Part shown: one piece after another, positions 3,178 to 44,780 of the stretch
Layout: every line of letters starts with the position of its first letter
Numbering within the stretch: position 1 is the stretch's first letter
IMG/VR virus record: IMGVR_UViG_3300022911_000007
Span: 1-46,626 of that record
Reading direction: 5' to 3' (one strand)
Length of the DNA stretch: 46,626 nt
Source: a virus
Program-made: the position numbers and the translations under genes
Notes under the pieces: generated by a model
What the model was told of the DNA's origin: nothing
The model's input: only the letters and a program-made list of their open reading frames with translations
Database searches by the model: none

Positions 3178-3356
3178 TGGATCCATTCCCCGCCGAGCTC
3201 GACGAGTTCAAGCGTGACCTCGCTGCACTCATCAACCGCCACAGCCTCGACACGGCCACGCAGACACCCGACTTCATCCTCGCCGAGTTCCTGGTCGTCA
3301 CGATCGCCGGCTTCGGGATCGCCATGCGCCAGACCCAGCAGTGGCTGGTCAGCTGA
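3177..3356 (+). CDS. Small hypothetical protein
   Basis: This 59-residue protein is coupled at both ends: its ATG overlaps the upstream TGA, and its own TGA overlaps the ATG of the gp3-like gene. A hydrophobic stretch near the end (ILAEFLVVTIAGFGIAM) could be one membrane or amphipathic helix, flanked by polar residues. I recognise no family. Confidence 0.6.
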   Translation: MDPFPAELDEFKRDLAALINRHSLDTATQTPDFILAEFLVVTIAGFGIAMRQTQQWLVS

Positions 3357-4348
3357 TGCCCCGCCAGGACGTCACCCCGCTGGCCGAGCTCGAGCGCCGG
3401 CTGCCGATGGCCGGGCGGATCCGGTTGGGCGTGAAGGACAAGGGCGCGCCGAAGTCGATCGACACGTTCCGCTTCACGTCACCGTTCGAGGACGTGATCC
3501 GTCAGCTCGCCTCGCAGTACGGCGGCGACGTGAAACCGTGGAACGACCCGAAGGCCAACCCGCCGGCGCAGTGGCAGGTCATCACCAACACCAAGGAGGT
3601 GTCGGTCATCATCGTGCGCGACGGGCTGTCGTCGTGGTACGAGCAGTGGGTCGGCGGCGGGTGCGTGCGCCGCTGCGACGGTGAGCTGTGCGAGATCAAC
3701 CAGCCGACCGGGCCCGACGAGGTGGAGAAGGTCCAGGTGCCGTGCATCTGCGACAAGGAGAAGCTGATGGCCTGTCAGCCCCACACCCGCCTGACCGTGC
3801 TGTTGCCCGACGTCGCCTTCCGTGGTGCCTGGCTGCTGCAGACCAAGGGCTACAACGCAGCGTTCGAGCTGCCCGGCATGGTCGACATGATCCAGTACCT
3901 GTCGAACCAGAACAAGACGGTGCACGCCACGCTGTCCGTCGAGCGCCGCACCCAAGCCACGCCCGGCCGGCGCAAGCGCAGCTTCGTCGTGCCTCGCATC
4001 TCGATCCTGAACACACCGACCGAGCTGGCTGCGCTCGGTGGCACCACCACACAGGTCGCCATCGGCGCCGGCACCGTGGACGCCCTCATCGTCGGTGAGT
4101 CACAGCAGATGGTGGACGACGACATCATCGAGGCCGAGATCGTGCCCGACCATCCGGTGCTCGATCGACTGCGTGACGATGCTCGCAACTTCGGACTGGA
4201 TCCAGCGCGCTACGTCAACGCCGTCAGCAAGCAGACCAACGCCGACTTCGAGCGGATGGAGATCTGCTCGGCCAAGGTCCGCGCCGAGCAGCTGATCCCG
4301 CTCGGCTTCAACCCCGATGGCTCGGTGCAGTGGGGGAAGCCAGCATGA
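3356..4348 (+). CDS. phiC31 gp3-like protein (recombination directionality factor family)
   Basis: This 330-residue protein matches the Gp3-like family named for the phiC31 excision factor. In order it shows RIRLGVK (about 22-28), SIDTFRFTSP, YGGDVKPWND, WQVITNT, a cysteine cluster GGGCVRRCDGELCEI, CICDKEKLMACQPHTRLTVLLPD, and GAWLLQTKGYNAAFEL. The four-cysteine part is likely a metal site. In phiC31 the protein binds the serine integrase and reverses its direction. Many phages without a serine integrase also carry this family, where its role is unclear. No integrase is seen in this window. The C-terminal third (after about residue 250) is not conserved with the family as I know it. Confidence 0.75.
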   Translation: MPRQDVTPLAELERRLPMAGRIRLGVKDKGAPKSIDTFRFTSPFEDVIRQLASQYGGDVKPWNDPKANPPAQWQVITNTKEVSVIIVRDGLSSWYEQWVGGGCVRRCDGELCEINQPTGPDEVEKVQVPCICDKEKLMACQPHTRLTVLLPDVAFRGAWLLQTKGYNAAFELPGMVDMIQYLSNQNKTVHATLSVERRTQATPGRRKRSFVVPRISILNTPTELAALGGTTTQVAIGAGTVDALIVGESQQMVDDDIIEAEIVPDHPVLDRLRDDARNFGLDPARYVNAVSKQTNADFERMEICSAKVRAEQLIPLGFNPDGSVQWGKPA

Positions 4349-17638: not shown

Positions 17639-18152
17639 GACCGGCTTCCCGTTGCTGACGCTGCCAGTCCGCCTTGTCGAAGATGGCGCGCTGGTCGCCA
17701 CCTGCAGCTGCGGAGATGAGTGTGTCGACGGCCTTGAGTCGGGCTTGGTCGACACGCATGCCGTTCTTGATGTCGGTGTGGAAGTTCCCCAACGCCATGT
17801 CGAGCGGATGCTGCGTCTCGGGTGCCGTCGCTGCAGCGGCTGCGCCGCCACGGAGGGCATCCCGGTTCTTGGCCAGCTCGAGATCCTCTGCCGGCGTCTC
17901 GTCCTCGGTCTTGGGTTGCTCGGCGTACAGCCCGAGCTCCGTCGCTTCGGCCTTCAACGCTTCCAGATCGTCGCCGTCCCAGTTCTTGAACAGCAGCTTG
18001 CCGACACCCTTGCTGGTGTCGATGGCCGCCTTCGTGAACAGCAGCTCCTTGCGGAGCTCGGCGTTCTCCTTCATCGTCTGACGTCCAGCTTCGGCGGCTG
18101 CACGCAGGGATTCGGGAGTCTCGCGCTCGTCAATGGTCTCGGTGTTGGACAT
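17628..18152 (-). CDS. Scaffolding protein (putative)
   Basis: The 174-residue, acidic, helix-rich protein (MSNTETIDERETPESLRAAA, AELRKELLFTKAAIDTSKGV) ends in a basic, Gln/Arg-rich tail (KADWQRQQREAGHGE). Acidic coiled N-terminus, a disordered Ala/Thr linker, and a small basic C-terminus just before the capsid gene are the hallmarks of capsid scaffolds. ATG 18152 is preceded by CACACAGGAGACC, one of the strongest binding sites in the window, which fits high expression. Confidence 0.7.
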   Translation of the reverse strand: MSNTETIDERETPESLRAAAEAGRQTMKENAELRKELLFTKAAIDTSKGVGKLLFKNWDGDDLEALKAEATELGLYAEQPKTEDETPAEDLELAKNRDALRGGAAAAATAPETQHPLDMALGNFHTDIKNGMRVDQARLKAVDTLISAAAGGDQRAIFDKADWQRQQREAGHGE

Positions 18153-18298
18153 GGTGGTCTCCTGTGTGGGTGTCGTATCGCCTGACTACTCGCAGCGCGC
18201 GGCGGGACACTGCGGACTTCGGCGGCCGAACTCAGCTCACACCTCGGGGCCAGATCACCAGCTCACCCGTGAGCGCATTGTGGCACACCGGCCCTGGG
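18153..18298 (-). promoter_or_regulatory. 146-base gap upstream of scaffold and capsid genes
   Basis: This is the largest gap in the structural block. It holds a ribosome binding site for the scaffold gene (18170-18156) and a weak stem CGCAG/CTGCG; a TTCGGC/GCCGAA palindrome overlaps itself. A CACAAT hexamer near 18270 could be a -10 element, but no good -35 is seen. A dedicated promoter for scaffold and capsid is plausible by position only. Confidence 0.3.
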
Positions 18299-19441
18299 TC
18301 AGCGCGAACCAACTCCGGTCAGACCTTCATTGGTCACCAGGCCGCCACCGAACGACGAGCGTTCGTTGGCCTGGCGCTCGAGCACACGGCGTTCGAGGGC
18401 GCGCTGTGCGTCGGCGTTGCCGAACGAGGTGGCCTCGATGCCGGTCTGCTGGTTGAGGTCGTCGACTTCGGTGATGCCTTCGGTCAAGACGTTGCCGAGC
18501 CCGGCGACCGTGGTCAGATCCTGGGTGATCCCGGCCTCGGTCTTGGGCAGCTGGGCGAGGCGTTCGGCGGTGACCTGGTCGATGTTGACGCCGAGCTGCT
18601 TGCCCATCCCGGCCGTGTAGCCGGCCATCGACTTCTGGTTGAGGTCGGCCATCGTCTTGGTCGGGTCGAGGAAGAACGCTGCGAGCGCGCCGTCGCCGGC
18701 GCCGACACCGTAGAACTGCTCGAACGCCTCACGGATCTGCGGGCTGACGGTGGCCACCCGTTCGTAGGCGGTGCCGACACGCTCGGCGATCTCGGATGCC
18801 GAGGTGGCGTTGTCGCCGCCGTAGTCGTCCATCAGCGACTGCAGGTACAACGGGTCCGAGTACATCGACGGGGGCAGCCCGGCGTGGCGGAAGCTGGCAC
18901 CGACAGCGTTCTCGAAGTCCCGCACGTTCTTGGGTGTCGGCACATACGGCGAACCCTGGGCGCGCATGGTGGCGATGATCGGGTACCGGGACTTGAACTC
19001 CTGGGTCTGCTCGATCGCCATGCCGAGACCGCTGGCCGTGGTGTTGCCGTTGGCGATCTGGTCCCACAGCCAGCCGCCCGGCTTGCCGCTGGCGTCGACG
19101 GACCACAGGTTGGACAGCCCCATCTCATCGAGGGTGGTGGTGACGAGATCGAACATGCTGGTGTCCGGCTTCGCAGCGGCGGGCGTCGTCGTCACGGGCG
19201 CGACACCCGTGGTGTTCGGCGAGTTGTCCACCGATCCCGCTGGTTGGAACGGCGTCACCACCCCGAGCGGATCGACCCAGTTGGCGAAGTTCGGATCGCC
19301 GGCCTTCTGTGCTGCACGAGCAGCCTGATTGAAGCCGAGCGGATCGTTCGGGTCCACCCATGCGGCGTACTGCGGGTCACCGGACGCCTGCGCATAGCGG
19401 GCGATCTCGTTCCAGCCGAGCGGATCGTTCGGTGTGGCCAT
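18299..19441 (-). CDS. Internal virion protein (putative)
   Basis: The 380-residue protein opens with two copies of a roughly 27-residue unit (NDPLGWNEIARYAQASGDPQ..AAWVDP and NDPLGFNQAARAAQKAGDPN..ANWVDP, about residues 4-58). A Pro/Thr/Ala linker and a helical body (100-370) follow. The body includes QFYGVGAGDGALAAFFLDPT and a basic, Gln-rich end. It belongs to a set of four genes encoding large helical proteins between portal and scaffold. These most likely form the ejected internal core of a podovirus. The stop of the upstream gene overlaps its ATG. The function is inferred from context. Confidence 0.55.
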   Translation of the reverse strand: MATPNDPLGWNEIARYAQASGDPQYAAWVDPNDPLGFNQAARAAQKAGDPNFANWVDPLGVVTPFQPAGSVDNSPNTTGVAPVTTTPAAAKPDTSMFDLVTTTLDEMGLSNLWSVDASGKPGGWLWDQIANGNTTASGLGMAIEQTQEFKSRYPIIATMRAQGSPYVPTPKNVRDFENAVGASFRHAGLPPSMYSDPLYLQSLMDDYGGDNATSASEIAERVGTAYERVATVSPQIREAFEQFYGVGAGDGALAAFFLDPTKTMADLNQKSMAGYTAGMGKQLGVNIDQVTAERLAQLPKTEAGITQDLTTVAGLGNVLTEGITEVDDLNQQTGIEATSFGNADAQRALERRVLERQANERSSFGGGLVTNEGLTGVGSR

Positions 19442-30440: not shown

Positions 30441-32307
30441 TGCCGCCTCCCTGTGCTGCCATGGCTTCCATCAGCTGACGCATCCCCGCTGCGCCACCGT
30501 CCGGTCCGGGCGGCGGTCCCGGGGGCGCGCCGGGCGGGAGGGCGAGCTGCTCACCTTGCTGCTGCAGCGCGCCCGGCCCGCCGGCCATGCCGGGCATCGT
30601 CTCGGGTGCAGCGATCTGGCCGAGCTCGGGCGGCGGCGCCTGCTGCGCTTGCAGCTCCTTCATCTTCTTGTCGACGTTGGTCATCGCCTTGAAGATGTCG
30701 TGGCCCTTGCGGATCTCCTCGACGAGCATCGTCGCTGCCGGCAGCGGGATCTGGCCCTGGGTCATCTGCTGCATGACGGTGGCGAACATCGCCTCCTCGA
30801 ACTGCTCGACCTGGACGAGCTCGGCTTCTTCTTCCGGGTCCTCGATCCACGGGTGCTTGGTGCGCGACGTCTCGAGCGACATCATCTTGGAGCCGTACAG
30901 CGAACCGAGGATCTGCGTCAGCTGGATGACGTCGGCGCCCGGGATCGGGTAGGACACCACGTTCTCCAACGTCTCGACGTGGATCGCCGGGGTGAACTCG
31001 ACGAGCCCCTTGTCGGTCGGCCAGCCCGAGTAGAGCGAGAACTGCTTGTTCGGCCAGTAGCCCTTGTAGGTCGCCAGGATCGCCGAGTTGATGTGGCTCA
31101 TCCATGCTTCGTCGGTTTCGTGCAGCTCTTGGATGCGGGGGTCGAGCGAGACCCCGGTGAGAGCATCGATGCCACGGCCGGTACGCAGGGCTCCGTATGT
31201 CTCGCCACCGACCTGAGGGGGCAGACCGGTCGAGATGCGGAAGTTGCGCTCGAGGCGGTCGACGGACTGCGAGGTGCGAACATCGGGAGTGGAGCGCAGC
31301 AGACCGAGGGACTCGGTGTCCATGAGCAGGTTGGGTTCGCCTTCACGGCCGTCCTTCCAGGGTCCGTTGACGAGCGTCGGCATGCCGCCGTCGCGCCGGC
31401 CGATGATGTACATGTCGGGGAAGATCGCCTTCTCCTGGGCGAGGATGTCGAGGGCGACCAACTTGGCCTGCAGGTCGACGTTGCCGATCATCGATGCCAG
31501 CCGGGAGGCGACGGCGCCGAGCGCGACGGAGCGGGGGCAGATCCCGGGGACGAGGCCGGCACGGTTCGGTGTCGACGGGCCGAGCTGGATCTGTGCGGCG
31601 CCACGCCACCGGTGGTCGACGTTGCGGCCGCCCTTGTGGACCGGGCCCATCAGCCCGAACATGACCTGGTCCTCGTCGATCCACTCGAACACCTCCCACA
31701 GCTCGGCGGTGTTCTGATCGGAGATCGGGCCGCCCTGCTCGCCGCGCACTTCGGGGAAGATCTTGCGGAGCTTCTGGCCGGAATGGGTGTTGATGTAGGC
31801 GATGTAGCCGGGCGGGCAGAGCTCCTCGGCGGACTGCGGTTCGACGAACGTGCCGAGCGGGTCACGGACCTCGAGGCGAGGCATCTCGTAGCCCTTCTTG
31901 AACGAGGGCAGCACGACGAGCGATGCGGTGTTGTAGGCGGCGAGCTGGCGCAGGTAGCGGCGGCGCCCGAGTCCCCACTTCGACTGGTGGTAGACGGCCG
32001 AGATCATCTTGCGCCGGGTCGTGGCGTAGCCGACCGAGCGCTGGCCGGTTGCCTTGTTCGGCTCCAACGCCGGCGAGACGACGCGCGGCCGCACCGAGGC
32101 GGCGCGCTGGGCCATCGAGTCGACCGCTTCACCGATCAGCGCCGGGGTCAACGGTGGCAGGGTCGGTTCGTTGACCACGGACGGCATCGGGATCACCCAG
32201 TCGCCTTCGTAGCGGTTGAGGACCTCACGCATCTTGGAGTTCATCACCGACTGCGACTTCTGCATGTCCTCGATCAGGGCGACAACGGAGTGGAAATCAC
32301 GAGGCAC
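30430..32307 (-). CDS. Portal protein
   Basis: The 625-residue protein forms the twelve-part DNA entry ring at one head vertex. It follows the large terminase and has a portal-like layout. A helical N-terminus (residues 1-60) contains WVIPMPSVVNEPTLPPLTPA. A wing and stem region (130-330) contains LASMIGNVDLQAKLVALDIL, and SVDRLERNFRISTGLPPQVG lies near 350. The C-terminal crown is helical and ends in a Pro/Gly/Gln-rich tail. GTG 32307 is preceded by AGGAGCACGCC. It overlaps the terminase gene by 11 bases. Order, size and segment pattern support the call. Confidence 0.8.
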   Translation of the reverse strand: MPRDFHSVVALIEDMQKSQSVMNSKMREVLNRYEGDWVIPMPSVVNEPTLPPLTPALIGEAVDSMAQRAASVRPRVVSPALEPNKATGQRSVGYATTRRKMISAVYHQSKWGLGRRRYLRQLAAYNTASLVVLPSFKKGYEMPRLEVRDPLGTFVEPQSAEELCPPGYIAYINTHSGQKLRKIFPEVRGEQGGPISDQNTAELWEVFEWIDEDQVMFGLMGPVHKGGRNVDHRWRGAAQIQLGPSTPNRAGLVPGICPRSVALGAVASRLASMIGNVDLQAKLVALDILAQEKAIFPDMYIIGRRDGGMPTLVNGPWKDGREGEPNLLMDTESLGLLRSTPDVRTSQSVDRLERNFRISTGLPPQVGGETYGALRTGRGIDALTGVSLDPRIQELHETDEAWMSHINSAILATYKGYWPNKQFSLYSGWPTDKGLVEFTPAIHVETLENVVSYPIPGADVIQLTQILGSLYGSKMMSLETSRTKHPWIEDPEEEAELVQVEQFEEAMFATVMQQMTQGQIPLPAATMLVEEIRKGHDIFKAMTNVDKKMKELQAQQAPPPELGQIAAPETMPGMAGGPGALQQQGEQLALPPGAPPGPPPGPDGGAAGMRQLMEAMAAQGGGNAP

Positions 32308-34075
32308 GGCGTGCTCCTGGGGGAAGGATCAGTCCAGAACCGATCGAGGGGTACGGCAGACCTTGCCGCTTGAACATTGCCGGCCCACGCTCCAACGCCC
32401 GGCTCTTGTACCGCTCTCGCCACAAGATCCAGATGAACCATAGGGCCATCACCCGGTCCATGCGGAACTTCGAGCCTCGCTGGCCGGGCTTCCACGCCTT
32501 CAACTGACGGACGAGCTCACCGATCTCGTAGCGGGTCCGGGTGTCGGGCGCCCATGGCAGCACGATCTCGCCCTTAATGAACGAGCTGACCATGCTCGGG
32601 ATGCCGATGTCCTCGTCGTACTTGTTGTTGCCCGTCAGGTGCGGCCGCTTGGAGAAGCCCCACTTGACCTCGAGCTCCTTGAAGCGTTCGTCGTTGGCGA
32701 GACCCTTCTGGAAGTTCATCGTCTCGACGACGACATCAGTGATGTGGCCGGTGTAGGCGAAGCGGCGCAGCACCGTTTCGAGCTCGGCCATGATCTCCTC
32801 GTTCTGCGAGAGACCGTCGACCTCTTTGATGTCTCGGATGATGAGCTTGTTGTCCGGTGTCACCTCGGCGGCCATCACACAGTTGAACGCTCCGAGGGCA
32901 GGGTCGAGGCCGGCGTAGCCGATCGCCCCTTCGGTCGGGTTGTGGTCGAGGGAGATCAGCGAGTTCTTGCACTTGTCGAGCACGGCGTCACCGAACGTGC
33001 GGTTCTTCGCCCCGGCCGAAGGGTTCTGCATGTAGTTGCGCGACCACGCCTCCTCACCGACCTTGCGGCGCATCCGGTCCAACTGGTCGAGGTTGTACCG
33101 CTCCGGCCACAGCGCGACCTGCTCGCCGGTGATCGCATCGGTGCGGATCGCAGCGAACTTCTTGACGGTGAGGATCCCCTCGAGCTCCTCGTCGTCGGCG
33201 AGGCGGGCCCAGATGTCGTCCTCACCGACACGGGTGCCGGCGCCGGTGATGATGCCGTGCTCGCCAGGGCGTGACAGCAGGTCCTGGCGGACGTACTCCT
33301 CGATCTCGTCGGTCTGGTTCTTCGTCTTCGTCGACTGCAGGTCGTCCATGTGGAGGTGATCGCAACGGGTCGAGACCACCGACGACTTGTAGCCGACCGC
33401 CTGCATCGAATAGTCACGTTCGTCGGAGTGGCCCTTCTTGAACACGTTGAAGTAGTCGGCGCCCCACGGCTGCGAATAGGCCTCGTCACGGGTCACGCCG
33501 GTCGGCGGCTTGAACGGGCCGAAGTCACGGACGTAGCGCGGCGTCGGGCCCTCCGGTTCCATGCGCAGCTTGACCCGGCCGAGGATCTTGCGCGAGATCT
33601 TCAACGCCTCCGAGGCAACGGTGATCCGGTACGTCGGGTCGGTGCCCAACTTCTCGCTGGCGTAGTTCTCGAACGTCGTCGTCTTGCCGTGCTCCGGCGG
33701 CCAGAGCGACAGCAAGATGTTGCCGAGCGGGAGCTGCTCCAAGGCGTTGATGAACTCGAGCTGGTGACGGGCGTAGCCCATCCCGAAGTAGCGCTTGGCG
33801 AAGCTGGCATGGCTGCCGTCCCACTTCGTCATCACCGCCGCCATCCCGGCCCGGGCGATGTCGACACTGGCCGCCCACGCCGGCTGCTTCTGACGTTGCT
33901 TCAGGTACGAGTCGTACTTCCAACCGACCGCCGTGCACGCCTCCTTGACCGGCATCCCGTTCTGCACATGAGCGAGGAGCTGTTCACGGCGCGCCAGAGC
34001 CTCGAAGTAGAACCGGTTGCGTCCCTTCTTCTCCGAGGAGTAGACGACACGACCCTCGTCGTCGTCGTCGTCCAC
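32297..34075 (-). CDS. Large terminase subunit (packaging ATPase/nuclease)
   Basis: The 592-residue protein drives DNA into the head and cuts it. The ATPase domain has Walker A LWPPEHGKTT (124-133) and Walker B LHMDDL (241-246), with ITGAGTRVGEDDIWARL as the coupling motif. The C-terminal RNase H-like nuclease begins at YAGLDPALGAF, where Asp391 is the likely metal ligand. It continues through VVVETMNFQKG and a late DRVMALW segment. Unusually, residues 38-62 (MPVKEACTAVGWKYDSYLKQ) look like a small helix-turn-helix, as in small terminases. GTG 34075 lies 2 bases after the previous stop. Confidence 0.9.
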   Translation of the reverse strand: MDDDDDEGRVVYSSEKKGRNRFYFEALARREQLLAHVQNGMPVKEACTAVGWKYDSYLKQRQKQPAWAASVDIARAGMAAVMTKWDGSHASFAKRYFGMGYARHQLEFINALEQLPLGNILLSLWPPEHGKTTTFENYASEKLGTDPTYRITVASEALKISRKILGRVKLRMEPEGPTPRYVRDFGPFKPPTGVTRDEAYSQPWGADYFNVFKKGHSDERDYSMQAVGYKSSVVSTRCDHLHMDDLQSTKTKNQTDEIEEYVRQDLLSRPGEHGIITGAGTRVGEDDIWARLADDEELEGILTVKKFAAIRTDAITGEQVALWPERYNLDQLDRMRRKVGEEAWSRNYMQNPSAGAKNRTFGDAVLDKCKNSLISLDHNPTEGAIGYAGLDPALGAFNCVMAAEVTPDNKLIIRDIKEVDGLSQNEEIMAELETVLRRFAYTGHITDVVVETMNFQKGLANDERFKELEVKWGFSKRPHLTGNNKYDEDIGIPSMVSSFIKGEIVLPWAPDTRTRYEIGELVRQLKAWKPGQRGSKFRMDRVMALWFIWILWRERYKSRALERGPAMFKRQGLPYPSIGSGLILPPGARRAS

Positions 34076-35080: not shown

Positions 35081-35189
35081 AGACGGCGCCCCTTGTGGCC
35101 CGATGTGTTCAGCATCGGAAGGAGCGCCGTCTCAGAATCCGCTCTCTCATCGTAGAGGGCGCAACCCACCAGGAGCGAACCCGATGAGA
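35081..35189 (+). ncRNA. Structured 5' leader with start-codon sequestering helix
   Basis: Two elements are read directly. First, a long hairpin: AGACGGCGC (35081-35089) pairs with GCGCCGTCT (35124-35132), CCTT (35091-35094) with AAGG (35119-35122), and CCGATG (35100-35105) with CATCGG (35113-35118). This gives about 19 base pairs with one mismatch, a 5-base bulge and a 7-base loop. Second, TCTCATCG (35145-35152) pairs perfectly with CGATGAGA (35182-35189). That covers the ATG of the downstream gene, with the AGGAG site in the loop. Together they look like a cis-acting translational switch. No known riboswitch class is recognised; a packaging signal is an alternative. Confidence 0.5.
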
Positions 35190-35477
35190 ACCCACGGTCG
35201 CAGACCCAAAGATTCGGCCCGAGATCGCTGGCAATGCGCCAGCTGCCTCAAGGTCAAGTCCGGCCGATCCGTCCACATCAACGGCATCGACTACTGCCGT
35301 CCCTGCTCAACCACGATCACACCCGTGACCCCCACCGCGCGCCAAACTGGACTCCATGGCATCTGCGCAACATGCGGCATCACCGTCGACGGCACCGGCG
35401 TGAAATCCAAGCTCGGCAAAACCGTCCACGGCGGAGGCTGCCCACGCAAAGCCCGCTCCCGAGGCCGACCCAGGTAA
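35184..35477 (+). CDS. Zinc-ribbon protein
   Basis: This 97-residue basic protein starts at ATG 35184, preceded by AGGAG at 35171-35175. One cluster is CASCLKVKSGRSVHINGIDYC-type spacing with CRPC (two CxxC pairs about 20 apart). A second is CATCGITVDG with a further Cys near the C-terminus (GGGCPRK). That makes two likely zinc sites and a basic tail, consistent with nucleic-acid binding. No HNH motif is seen. It stands alone on the plus strand between the late block and the ORF-poor region, behind a structured leader. Confidence 0.65.
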   Translation: MRTHGRRPKDSARDRWQCASCLKVKSGRSVHINGIDYCRPCSTTITPVTPTARQTGLHGICATCGITVDGTGVKSKLGKTVHGGGCPRKARSRGRPR

Positions 35478-35641
35478 CACCTCGAGGCCCAGGAGCACCG
35501 CAGAGACAAGCGCCGCCGCTCCGGTGGACACCAACAGCCACCGACGCCGAGTGAATCCAGCAACCAGCCCTTGCCGCAGGCCCCGAGGATTTCTGATTGC
35601 ACGACACTCGAAAAAAGCGCCCCGCACCTAAGGGCCTGCCC

Positions 35642-35839
35642 ATGTCCAAACTCAGCACCAACGAGCTCGGCTCACGCACCTCAGTTCGGTTCGGAGAGAG
35701 TGTGAGCGAACCACACACGCAGCAGGTACGCACTACTGTTGACCAGGGAGTATGTGAACCATCCGTGCTCCACCAAGGACGCCAGGACGGTTATATATGG
35801 AGCCCCGGTCCTGGCACATCCCCCCCGCATCCCTGCTGA
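35642..35839 (+). CDS. Doubtful small ORF
   Basis: A 65-residue reading frame with AAGGG 9 bases before the ATG. The first 35 residues (MSKLSTNELGSRTSVRFGES and on) look protein-like, but the end is a Pro/Gly/Ser-rich stretch typical of non-coding GC-rich DNA. It overlaps an 8-bp inverted repeat (35781-35788 with 35808-35815). It may be a short peptide gene or nothing. Confidence 0.25.
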   Translation: MSKLSTNELGSRTSVRFGESVSEPHTQQVRTTVDQGVCEPSVLHQGRQDGYIWSPGPGTSPPHPC

Positions 35840-35995
35840 ACCCCGCAGGTCTGCGCCGGGGAAGCCAGGAGGGCTGCCCCGGTGGTCTGGCCCCGACGCC
35901 AGGATCTCCCACCGGGTCCGGTCCCCTCATCTCACTGCCATCGCTAGCGAGAAGGCCCGAGTCCCTCCCCCATCGAACCTCGGTGCTGCCAGACT

Positions 35996-36087
35996 GACGG
36001 TCGAATCTCCCCGATCCAAGAGCCAGGCGGTTCGGTACTGCTGGCCTGGTGTTGCTCCCTCCACCCTGCAGGTGAGCGGTCGACCGT
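35996..36087. repeat. Long-range 8-bp inverted repeat with inner hairpin
   Basis: ACGGTCGA (35996-36003) and TCGACCGT (36080-36087) are exact reverse complements enclosing 76 bases. Inside, CCAGGC (36023-36028) pairs with GCCTGG (36044-36049). The nesting suggests an RNA domain rather than a protein binding site. Confidence 0.45.
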
Positions 36088-36153
36088 GGGACTGTGGCTC
36101 CCTGCCCTGCCGACCGCACCGCTGCGGCAGCCGGGTGGTGACGGTCGTGCGAA

Positions 36154-36211
36154 CACACCACGGGTGCCGGGCTGACCGACCGCCTGCGGCGAGGGTCGCA
36201 CGCGTGGTGTG
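36154..36211. repeat. 9-bp inverted repeat, long hairpin
   Basis: CACACCACG (36154-36162) and CGTGGTGTG (36203-36211) are exact reverse complements around 40 bases. The inner part contains further short stems (GACC with GGTC). It is part of the structured region between the two gene blocks. Confidence 0.5.
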
Positions 36212-36634
36212 CCGGCGTCGGTGGGGCGAACCCACGACCCGCCTGCCGGACGCCTGCGTGTGCAGGTATCCATCCCCATGTTCACCGCACTGATCTTGCG
36301 GGGGTTGGTGGTGCCCGGCTTCGTTGGGTGGCTCCCGCCACGAACTGGTGGCGTGCAGGTCTACCCCGTTCAAGATCAAGATGCGCCTGGCGGCGGGCGT
36401 CCACCTGGCGGTGAGCACCTCCTCTCCCTGCGTCGGGTCGGAGCACGGGTCCCCGGTCACAATTGACAGCGTGGGGAATCGGGACGGCCCAAGGACATCC
36501 GTTCGGTGGTCGCTTGGCGGAGTGTGGGTGTTCGGTGGCACGGCGTTGGGCTCGCGCGCACGGATGCCCAAAGGACCGGCCCGACCTCCCGAGCTGTCGG
36601 TTCCCTGGTTTTATCCCCCCCACAGTGACCGCCG

Positions 36635-36656
36635 CCTTGTACCACATGGGTCAAGG
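36635..36656. repeat. Bulged hairpin
   Basis: CCTTG, bulged T, ACC, loop ACATG, GGT, CAAGG gives 8 base pairs with one bulge. It is compact enough to fold by itself. Confidence 0.4.
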
Positions 36657-36692
36657 GGCGAAACAATCTGGCACCCAGACGCCTGACACCCT

Positions 36693-36714
36693 GCCCACCC
36701 CGCTCTCAGTGGGC
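36693..36714. repeat. Hairpin related to that at 36849
   Basis: GCCCAC and GTGGGC flank a 10-base loop that contains CCCGCTCTC. The loop and 3' arm resemble the 3' arm of the hairpin at 36849-36879 (CCCCGCTCTC, then GT, then GGGC), so the two may be diverged copies about 165 bases apart. Confidence 0.4.
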
Positions 36715-36848
36715 GAGTCACGCAGCGGGTGGTCGGCTATCCCTGTGCTCGAGTCGCGCGCAGCGGGGCGGACAGTGTGACATGCGTGTCTCGATGAGGC
36801 AGCCAGATTCTTTCGGACCTGCCAATGGGGAACCCCAAGGCGCTGCAT

Positions 36849-36879
36849 CCGACAGAGAGCAAACCCCGCTCTCTGTCGG
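36849..36879. terminator. Perfect 12-bp hairpin
   Basis: CCGACAGAGAGC and GCTCTCTGTCGG pair completely around AAACCCC. There is no T-tract on either side. It may end a transcript from the left, protect an RNA end, or be a domain of a larger RNA. Confidence 0.55.
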
Positions 36880-36914
36880 GCACCGCCTATCCCCATCCCG
36901 GCACCCCTTGACCT

Positions 36915-36980
36915 ACGGGGGCAACCGATGCCTGGACATGGCGGACGGAAGGGCTGTCCGCCATCTCCCGGCGCCCCCGT
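36915..36980 (+). ncRNA. Nested double stem upstream of the early block
   Basis: An outer helix ACGGGGGC (36915-36922) with GCCCCCGT (36973-36980) encloses an inner 9-bp hairpin ATGGCGGAC (36938-36946) with GTCCGCCAT (36956-36964). All 17 pairs are Watson-Crick. It ends 67 bases before the first early gene. If transcribed with it, this would be a leader element that could control the early block. No known class is recognised. Confidence 0.5.
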
Positions 36981-37047
36981 TCATGCGGTTCATGGGGCGG
37001 TAACTGTGGGTGAGAGTCGCCCCGGTCCGAGTAAGGGATGGTCGGTT

Positions 37048-37785
37048 ATGAGCAAGCAAGAAGCAACTCCGGTTCGGAAGGTAGCGCAGCGTGTGCTGGT
37101 CTGCGGATCCCGCACCTTCGGAGATGTGCGGCTGGTGGAGTCGGAGGTGTTGTCCTTGGTGGAACGTGGCATCGTTTCACCGAACGCGACCATCGTGCAT
37201 GGTGGTGCGAAGGGCGCTGACACGTGTGCCGGGATGGTGGGGTTTGTGCTCGGCTTCGAGGTCGAGGTGCACCCGGCCGATTGGTCCGGCAAGGGTAAGA
37301 GCGCTGGTTACATCAGGAACCAGGAGATGTTGGAGTCCGGCCTCGACTACTGCATCGCGTTCATTGACAAGCCGCTTGCGGAGAGTCGAGGCACTGCCGA
37401 CATGGTTCGGAGGTGCACTGCGCATGGTGTCCCAGGTGTGATCGTGCATGCTCGGAAGCCGAAGTCCGAGGCGCGCCGGTCAGCTCCCGAGGCGAGGGTG
37501 GTGTCCAAGAAGGATGCGCACGATGTGTACATCGGTCGGCCGTCGAAGTGGGGGAACCCGTTTCACATCGGAGTCGACGGCACTCGGGACGAGGTGATTG
37601 CCAAGTTCGAGTCGTATCTGCTGGCACGCCCTGACCTGATCGCTGATGCGCAGGTCGAGTTGAAGGGCAAGAGGCTCGGCTGCTACTGCGCTCCGCATCG
37701 GTGCCACGGGGACGTGCTCGCCTTCATTGCCAACGGCGGAACCCTCGTCCCTGCCTACACCTACAACGAGGAGGTTGCAGTCTGA
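37048..37785 (+). CDS. SLOG (DUF2493/YspA-like) - DUF4326 fusion protein
   Basis: The 245-residue protein joins two domains. Residues 13-135 form a SLOG Rossmann-like fold: VLVCGSRTF, then VHGGAKGADT (50-59), VEVHPADWSGKGKSAGYIRN and ESRGTADMVRRC. Residues 148-232 match DUF4326: VVSKKDAHDVYIGRPSKWGN, then GTRDEVIAKFESYLL and LGCYCAPHRCHGDVLA. SLOG proteins bind nucleotides or nucleotide-derived signals, and the family is linked to conflict systems. DUF4326 has no proven activity that I know of. AAGGGA lies about 9 bases before the ATG. It is the first gene of the early block, behind the structured region, so it may be made early in infection. An anti-defence or nucleotide-modifying role is inference. 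Confidence 0.8.
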   Translation: MSKQEATPVRKVAQRVLVCGSRTFGDVRLVESEVLSLVERGIVSPNATIVHGGAKGADTCAGMVGFVLGFEVEVHPADWSGKGKSAGYIRNQEMLESGLDYCIAFIDKPLAESRGTADMVRRCTAHGVPGVIVHARKPKSEARRSAPEARVVSKKDAHDVYIGRPSKWGNPFHIGVDGTRDEVIAKFESYLLARPDLIADAQVELKGKRLGCYCAPHRCHGDVLAFIANGGTLVPAYTYNEEVAV

Positions 37786-43619: not shown

Positions 43620-43759
43620 TGCCAATCGATCCTGACCAGATCCTCGATCAGCAGGTCGACGACTACATCGACGCAGCTTCCGAAGACGAGGAGGACAACG
43701 AGTTCCATCCGTTCTCGTGCGGCTGTGAGCTGTGCGATCCGTACCCGGGACCGGACTGA
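43619..43759 (+). CDS. 46-residue acidic protein with CxC-xx-C motif
   Basis: The first 30 residues are acidic (ILDQQVDDYIDAASEDEEDN). Then FHPFSCGCELCDPYPGPD ends the protein, with Cys-x-Cys-x(2)-Cys after HP. The same arrangement ends the second half of the protein at 42955. It may be a metal-binding decoy or adaptor. It is coupled to both neighbours. Confidence 0.55.
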   Translation: MPIDPDQILDQQVDDYIDAASEDEEDNEFHPFSCGCELCDPYPGPD

Positions 43760-43935
43760 TGGCCAAGACCCACGTCCGCTGCCGCAACTGCGGACTCAAG
43801 CCGATCGATCACCTCAACGCCATGTGCACCACGCCCGAGTACCGGCGAATCCCCGATGCGATCGTGCACCCATCGGAGATGGCGGCCAGCGTCACCGACA
43901 TCGCACCCCACCATTGGAAGGAGCTGTACGCATGA
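43759..43935 (+). CDS. Small protein with CxxC motif
   Basis: The 58-residue protein starts MAKTHVRCRNCGLKPIDHLN, with one CxxC pair and His nearby, and ends HHWKELYA. It lies between the acidic miniprotein and the ArdC-like gene with overlaps on both sides. No family is recognised. Confidence 0.55.
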   Translation: MAKTHVRCRNCGLKPIDHLNAMCTTPEYRRIPDAIVHPSEMAASVTDIAPHHWKELYA

Positions 43936-44780
43936 GCACACCACAGATGGACAAGGTCGTCGCCTCCATCGTCGAGGCGATCGAGGCCGGCGCCAAGGGT
44001 GGCGAGTGGGTGATGCCGTGGACGTTCAAGGGTGGCAGCGTGCTGCCGCACAACGCCACGACCGGCGCGCAGTACCACGGTGCGAACGTCGTCATCCTCT
44101 GGTTCACCGCGCTGCAGCAGGGCTGGCCGTCGTCGAGGTGGGCGACGTTCAAGCAGTGGCAGTCGGTCGGTGCGCAGGTGCGCAAGGGATCGAAGGGCAC
44201 CGATGCGTTCATCTGGAAGTCATTGCCGTCCGACAACGACGATCCTGATGCGCCGCGCCGTGGCTTCTACCGTGGCTTCTACCTGTTCAACGCAGCCCAG
44301 GTCGACAACGATCCCTACTCCGAACCCGAGCTCGACCTCGACGTCGATCTCCACGACCTCGAGCTGGTGCCGGCGCAGCGTGCCGTTGGCCGCCCGTCGT
44401 ACAACGTGACGATGGACGTGGTCAACATGCCACCGCGCTCGACGTTCGCCACCGAGGACGACTACCTGGCCACGCTGGCGCACGAGCTCGGTCACTGGAC
44501 GGGGCACAGCACACGGCTGAACCGTGAGTACGGCAAGCGGTTCGGTGACCAGCAGTACGCAGCCGAGGAGCTCGTCGCCGAGCTGTCCGCTGCGTTCACC
44601 TGTGCCGAGCTCGGCATCTCGACGGTGCCACGCCTCGACCATGCGCAGTACCTCGAGCACTGGATCTCGATGCTCAAGGCCGACGCTTCGATCCTGTTCA
44701 CCGTGGCATCGAAGGCGCAGGCCGCCACCGACTACCTCATGAAGTACACCCAGCCCCACGCACAGGAAGCGATCGCATGA
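43932..44780 (+). CDS. ArdC-like antirestriction protein
   Basis: The 282-residue protein has both parts of the ArdC family. An N-terminal ssDNA-binding domain (about 1-120) has GGEWVMPWTFKGGSVLPHNA, TGAQYHGANVVILWFTALQ, WATFKQWQSVGAQVRKGSKG and GFYRGFYLFNAAQV. A zincin-like metalloprotease domain follows: HELGHWTGH (184-192; His184, Glu185, His188) and AAEELVAELSAAF, which supplies the third Glu ligand (211-223). Family members protect incoming plasmid or phage DNA from restriction. All active-site residues are present. It starts on an ATGA overlap. Confidence 0.9.
   Translation: MSTPQMDKVVASIVEAIEAGAKGGEWVMPWTFKGGSVLPHNATTGAQYHGANVVILWFTALQQGWPSSRWATFKQWQSVGAQVRKGSKGTDAFIWKSLPSDNDDPDAPRRGFYRGFYLFNAAQVDNDPYSEPELDLDVDLHDLELVPAQRAVGRPSYNVTMDVVNMPPRSTFATEDDYLATLAHELGHWTGHSTRLNREYGKRFGDQQYAAEELVAELSAAFTCAELGISTVPRLDHAQYLEHWISMLKADASILFTVASKAQAATDYLMKYTQPHAQEAIA

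Follow-up and report, generated by a model that had tools for sequence, protein, structure and literature searches.

The window, by which we mean the whole stretch of DNA that was analysed, is an IMG/VR virus record of 46,626 bases with a GC content of 65.5%. As a whole the record is without a near match among 50,697 phage records in a DNA comparison, and a search for DNA similarity to cultured phages gave none. Its leftward block contains the terminase, the major head protein and the tail genes, and its rightward block begins at 37048 with a SLOG/DUF4326 protein and also includes an SSB and an ArdC-type anti-restriction protein. The region discussed here had been placed between late and early genes by the first-pass annotation, and the gene assignments agree with that position. 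By terminase, the most similar cultured group consists of Streptomyces phages such as Immanuel3 (Beephvirinae), the terminases of which are 24% identical to that of the window. A search of bacterial genomes for prophage terminases resembling the one in the window, which was meant to reveal the host, found none. Elsewhere in the window, positions 101-1708, 3341-4348 and 43725-44780 correspond to a ParB-like protein, a Gp3/recombination-directionality-factor-like protein and an ArdC anti-restriction protein with a zincin-like metallopeptidase domain, respectively.

The gene-free gap and its folding

The description of the region as about 1.2 kb without genes or a coding frame stood up well. Over 35840-37047 the period-3 power amounts to 0.78, whereas the genome averages 13.05. 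GC by base position is flat (0.72/0.64/0.68), in contrast to well-supported genes, which have 0.43-0.46 at the second and 0.76-0.89 at the third position. The missing period-3 signal, together with the lack of any Pfam match for the ORFs within this interval, rules out a hidden protein gene. The 1208-nt window with the lowest period-3 value in the genome (0.66) starts at 35637, and the gene-free stretch extends to the left beyond 35840, to about 35480 or further. An ORF with Cys pairs (zinc-ribbon-like) is present at 35187-35477 on the plus strand, opposite to the late block; its coding signal is weak and no family was found for it. Three-base periodicity is also very low in the 300-nt windows 2301-2600 and 18101-18400, which are possibly small noncoding gaps.

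In comparison with 16 dinucleotide shuffles, the MFE of 35795-37040 has a z value of -8.8 on the plus and -7.2 on the minus strand, and that of 36601-37030 reaches -12.7 and -10.4. A rerun with other shuffles gave -7.2/-5.6 for 35830-37040 and -8.7/-7.3 for 36601-37040; being based on 16-60 shuffles all such values are rough, and the independent runs are concordant. At the left end, 35795-35960 was evaluated with 60 shuffles (Table 1), and a 150-nt window at 35776 has a z of -3.2. Coding control segments have a mean z of -0.8/-0.5, with a range of -3.5 to +1.7. In the middle part (36060-36600, about 540 nt) structure is not significant (z -0.4 to -1.3).

Plain inverted repeats of 8-9 bp are not in excess over the region as a whole, with 165 paired bases versus 166 in shuffles, and because these counts match, single helices of this size prove nothing at a GC content of about 68%. 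Within 36601-37040 they comprise 63 paired bases versus 42 in shuffles. Two features do stand out: the 12-bp hairpin (36849-36879) and, toward the right end, the long-range pairs that nest within each other. Of the long inverted repeats and exact helices that had been claimed earlier, the repeats are present and the folding goes beyond that of shuffles (z about -7 to -9), but the short helices are not in excess and the middle is unremarkable.

Hairpins with an AACCCC loop were defined by a loop AAACCCC or TGAACCCC closed by at least five perfect pairs. The 2.7 Mb of fetched sequence, with 330 loop occurrences, yielded four such hairpins against 0.3 expected: two in the gap of the window, two in that of L002, and none in other fetched sequence. 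They sit near both gap ends, in the window and in L002 alike. The inner CCTGC/GCAGG stem is common to the first copies of both genomes, and the stems of the distal copies differ. These predicted hairpins are the sole comparative RNA evidence that bears directly on the window.

Table 1 Features of the gap and of the adjoining genes (positions in the window; paired z values refer to plus/minus strand)
Feature	Position	Strand	Remarks
Terminase large subunit, leftward late block	32297..34075	-	PHROG 38, E 4e-42; served as query for relatives
Terminator-like hairpin with T-run	35611..35635	-	GCCCTTAGGTGCGGGGC GCTTTTTTCG; lies downstream of the leftward element by about 150 nt
Conserved element common to distant marine phages, promoter-like read leftward	35756..35826	-	Matched by a profile in about 20 contigs, once per genome
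TATATA, -10-like hexamer	35792..35797	-	17 nt spacer; read by eye from alignments
GATGTG, -35-like hexamer	35815..35820	-	Read by eye from alignments
Structured domain adjoining the promoter-like element	35795..35960	open	z -3.6/-3.1
Hairpin with AACCCC loop, copy 1	35832..35849	open	CCTGC-TGAACCCC-GCAGG; 1 of 4 in 2.7 Mb
Gene-free structured region	35840..37047	RNA strand left open	No period-3 signal; MFE z -7.2/-5.6 to -8.8/-7.2
14-nt inverted repeat, 93%	36154-36167/36198-36211		
Most structured domain, about 430 nt	36601..37030	open	z -12.7/-10.4, -8.7/-7.3; nested long-range helices and hairpin 36930-36946/36956-36972
20-nt inverted pair, 85%	36614-36633/36996-37015		Long-range, nested
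17-nt inverted pair, 82%	36642-36658/36904-36920		Long-range, nested
Hairpin with AACCCC loop, copy 2	36849..36879	open	CCGACAGAGAGC-AAACCCC-GCTCTCTGTCGG; perfect 12-bp stem (36849-36860/36868-36879), 7-nt loop
Opening gene of the rightward early block: SLOG/YspA-like protein, DUF4326 domain	37048..37785	+	Pfam PF10686, PF14216

The promoter-like element and the gaps of relatives

The terminase search produced 80 loci, of which L002 is the nearest (65% terminase identity). No close relative of the window was found among them, and only about 70 nt of the gap, beside the promoter-like element, align with L002. Within this alignable part lies the pattern TATATAT-N14-GGCACATCCCCCCC with conserved flanks, which recurs once per genome, within the same gap, in far more distant marine phages. 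Most aligned relatives have, reading toward the terminase, GATGT[GA], 16-17 nt, and then TATATA, TATTAT or TATTAA. A scan with the sigma-70 consensus gave nothing at the element, and no rightward promoter was recognised either. We infer that the conserved element may function as a late promoter, its -35 hexamer being non-canonical. Its assignment as a rightward early promoter was dropped, since the hexamer spacing fits a leftward reading and the adjoining leader RNA of marine relatives is leftward by wobble counts (see below). Of the extra matches to the pattern TATATAT..TGGCANANCCCC, most lack the remainder of the element and are probably accidental.

Relatives with terminases that are only 23-65% identical to that of the window keep a gene-free and mostly highly structured stretch in the same divergent gap. 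On the far side of the element from the terminase, the next ORF nearly always begins only after 0.3-1.1 kb that lacks clear genes; in L002 this stretch is interrupted by a small ORF of 56 codons. In successive lineages the degree of structure equals that of the window: the folding z of the stretch beside the element is -8.7 in L125, -8.6 in L159, -7.3 in L164, -6.8 in L161, -6.0 in L130, -5.4 in L133 and -5.1 in L163, and the distal part of L002 has -6.4. Two exceptions were found among those tested, namely L114, in which a gene-free stretch in a similar position folds ordinarily (z -0.7), and L201, which folds weakly too. Because the architecture of the gap is not conserved between lineages, regarding these stretches as one RNA class would be a matter of position and shared modules.

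Covarying modules in marine relatives

Alignment for compensating base changes, which had been proposed as a check by the first-pass annotation, gave such changes in the marine relatives. In the window it gave only the same-loop hairpins, mostly with different stems, since just those 70 nt align with L002. In group A (three marine genomes) double changes occur in nine pairs, for example AAATCTTCGGA/TCCGAAGATTT versus AAATTATCGGG/CCCGATAATTT, and group B has compensatory double changes in nine pairs as well.

The strongest pairing pattern is that of a 30-nt module, CCACG-GAG-NGAU-C-CGUGG-ACG-AUCN', which forms a pseudoknot and of which 15 distinct copies were found, in one orientation wherever the orientation relative to the element is readable. 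All 135 of the 135 cells are paired, five of the nine pairs have double changes, and one pair is seen as UA, CG, AU and GC. The real score is reached by none of 500 shuffles, and slid versions collapse. The second helix was lengthened by one pair after looking at the slid control, a mild post-hoc choice that is unimportant because the four pair types agree perfectly. This marine-type module was looked for in the window and not found, and its exact main form is absent from a genome set of 84,980 species. Copies at L306:1005 and L308:3490 lie in a noncoding-looking stretch, and no match to the late-leader RNA or to terminase was seen in those contigs. Related genomes also share a recurring second module, TGTGCAATC..GATTGCTACG.

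Downstream of the element, toward the terminase, marine relatives have a conserved leader of about 125 nt with a GCCCNUCUGACGGGC hairpin and a covarying C/G stem. It is present at L125:2059-2178, L130:804-924 and some 33 further loci, and is absent from Rfam. Its predicted helices comprise 568 Watson-Crick, 62 G-U and 4 A-C cells on the leftward strand, compared with 526, 4 and 15 on the other, and double changes occur in five of 13 pairs. By these wobble counts and double changes it is an RNA made toward the terminase, and this late-operon leader represents a second new RNA. It is also present in phages with a terminase only about 24% identical to that of the window, and was undetected with a profile and a covariance model in the window, L002 and L114.

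Possible roles of the gap

No family of Rfam 15 matches the window or the gap of any relative. With the covariance models of GOLLD and ROOL, nothing reached gathering score in the window, nothing appeared up to an E value of 5 in 35600-37100, and the relatives had no match either. The window is also without a tRNA (searched with ARAGORN) or tmRNA. Membership of GOLLD, ROOL or another Rfam family is accordingly not supported, and the tRNA setting is missing as well. GOLLD RNAs are large (many >800 nt), ornate, noncoding, phage-borne and partly poorly conserved, and ROOL RNAs are phage-borne, hundreds of nucleotides long, and have several pseudoknots and no known function (PMC12286853). The locus in the window shares the listed properties of GOLLD. 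However, GOLLD often occurs near tRNA genes, whereas the present locus lies beside a late promoter-like element upstream of the terminase, and no conserved 3' core is seen across its lineages. With ROOL it has in common that it is phage-borne and hundreds of nucleotides long. As to pseudoknots, one covarying module occurs in the relatives and was not found in the window. The locus differs from ROOL in having no Rfam match, another genomic place and a lineage-dependent architecture. Further traits of GOLLD are a rise in expression at lysis and assembly into an oligomeric cage, and ROOL forms oligomers too. GOLLD and ROOL are nearest in style, and the locus is outside every known class, similar to them in kind but unrelated.

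The gap is best explained as the divergent early/late control region of an uncultured phage family, in which a structured RNA locus occupies up to about 1.2 kb. We put the probability that this is a functional RNA locus, with a putative transcript, at roughly 0.7. RNA is the best reading because relatives keep a structured gap with compensatory changes and a covarying pseudoknot, and because the same-loop hairpins link the window to L002. Together with the lack of a coding frame, this leaves the large structured RNA of the first-pass annotation as the preferred interpretation, while class membership is unsupported. As far as can be judged from sequence, the locus points to a putative, undescribed kind of large phage RNA.

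A mode of action can be envisaged in which the gap is transcribed and selection keeps the folded RNA rather than the DNA. Repeated modules (the pseudoknot in relatives, the AACCCC-loop hairpins in the window) could then serve as places where a phage or host partner docks. The untranslated RNA, as the gap's own transcript, would fold into a compact multi-module particle that acts in trans, and would work like GOLLD or ROOL though unrelated to them. Such a stand-alone, trans-acting multi-module RNA, with transcription and function both presumed, is a tentative proposal to which we give slightly less than an even chance. Similar reserve applies to the idea of a family-wide class of large RNAs. 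Their architecture would be rebuilt in each lineage from small recurring modules (the covarying pseudoknot, the GCAAUC/GAUUGC module and AACCCC-loop hairpins), always beside the conserved late promoter, with the second leader RNA in the marine members.

Next in likelihood, though rather unlikely, is that the structured stretch is a leader, i.e. the 5' untranslated part of an early rightward transcript or of leftward read-through into the late block, in which hairpins control elongation by attenuation or antitermination. RNA-borne antitermination is found in the put RNA of phage HK022. This RNA and late leaders such as the lambda 6S RNA region are likewise untranslated structured RNAs at the start of a phage operon, and the present stretch is far longer. 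The stretch directly precedes the first early gene and adjoins the promoter-like element, a separate late leader in the marine relatives covaries as RNA, and the window has a leftward terminator-like hairpin downstream of the element. On the other hand, an attenuator of 0.4-1.2 kb would be long, the promoter scan recognised none directed rightward, and strand tests lean leftward in the relatives and not in the window. The strand difference in folding energy, relative to shuffles, favours the strand toward the terminase in 12 of 12 full-length relatives (z +0.6 to +5.9), which are not independent and some of which lean only slightly (z 0.6-1.2). In 180-nt windows this lean is mild (59%), is found mainly in the first 400 nt beside the element, and holds only on average. 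The window itself has no preference (z -0.3), and G-U versus A-C counts in the main region are weak strand evidence when taken alone.

A DNA-level role, either at genome ends (as a direct terminal repeat or packaging site) or as a replication origin whose hairpins act as DNA, is improbable but stays in contention. In Immanuel3 the corresponding gap, which also lies upstream of the terminase where the early and late blocks diverge, contains a 275-bp direct terminal repeat and about 1.2 kb of gene-free, structured sequence. The two phages differ in that blastn of the window gap against the phage collection showed no similarity, the terminases are only 24% identical, and a terminal repeat is known in Immanuel3 alone. 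The ends of many marine contigs lie near the element, which is also where three near-complete contigs (46.9-47.5 kb) are broken. However, a pseudoknot with perfect covariation is an RNA feature. Moreover, the ends overlap clearly in a single contig only, and there they are not identical (97.6% over 123 nt), which fits an assembly break at a conserved/variable boundary. A terminus and an RNA locus could also share the gap. For the window no end repeats are reported, and its record was opened about 10.8 kb from the gap. Contig ends within about 130 nt of the element were seen in L010, L020, L078, L239, L066, L036, L136, L044, L026 and L029, and are either physical ends or places where the assembly broke in hypervariable sequence. 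In Immanuel3 the right end, which is free of genes (L115:44620-45815), has z values of -4.4/-6.3, based on only six shuffles, and repeats GAGTTCTC motifs.

That the gap is a GC-rich spacer which accumulated inverted repeats and has no RNA function is very improbable. In its favour, short inverted repeats counted over the entire region do not exceed those of shuffles, and both the middle part and L114 are unstructured. Against it are the z values, which run from -7 to -12.7 in the region and its distal part, the recurrence of such folding in many lineages, the compensatory changes and the shared modules.

Large structured RNAs of phages fall into only a few known classes, none with a settled job, and the structured RNA locus proposed here is a further candidate. 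It is found widely in uncultured aquatic phages, where it occupies a set position in the genome next to a conserved control element; in relatives it also contains a compact pseudoknot that covaries. A large fold that turns over fast beside constant modules could show which parts of such RNAs matter.

Two further observations concern the relatives. Palindromes CGAACNNNNGTTCG, absent from the window, resemble Gram-positive LexA (SOS) boxes and occur about 235-480 nt to the right of the element in L133, L125, L117 and L164, and also near position 1400 in L134 and L163. A match of only 82 nt to the Rfam tmRNA family (72 bits, E 6.6e-26) is present in a marine relative at L133:7186-7267 and L060:1777-1858, and so represents a truncated or unusually compact tmRNA-like gene.
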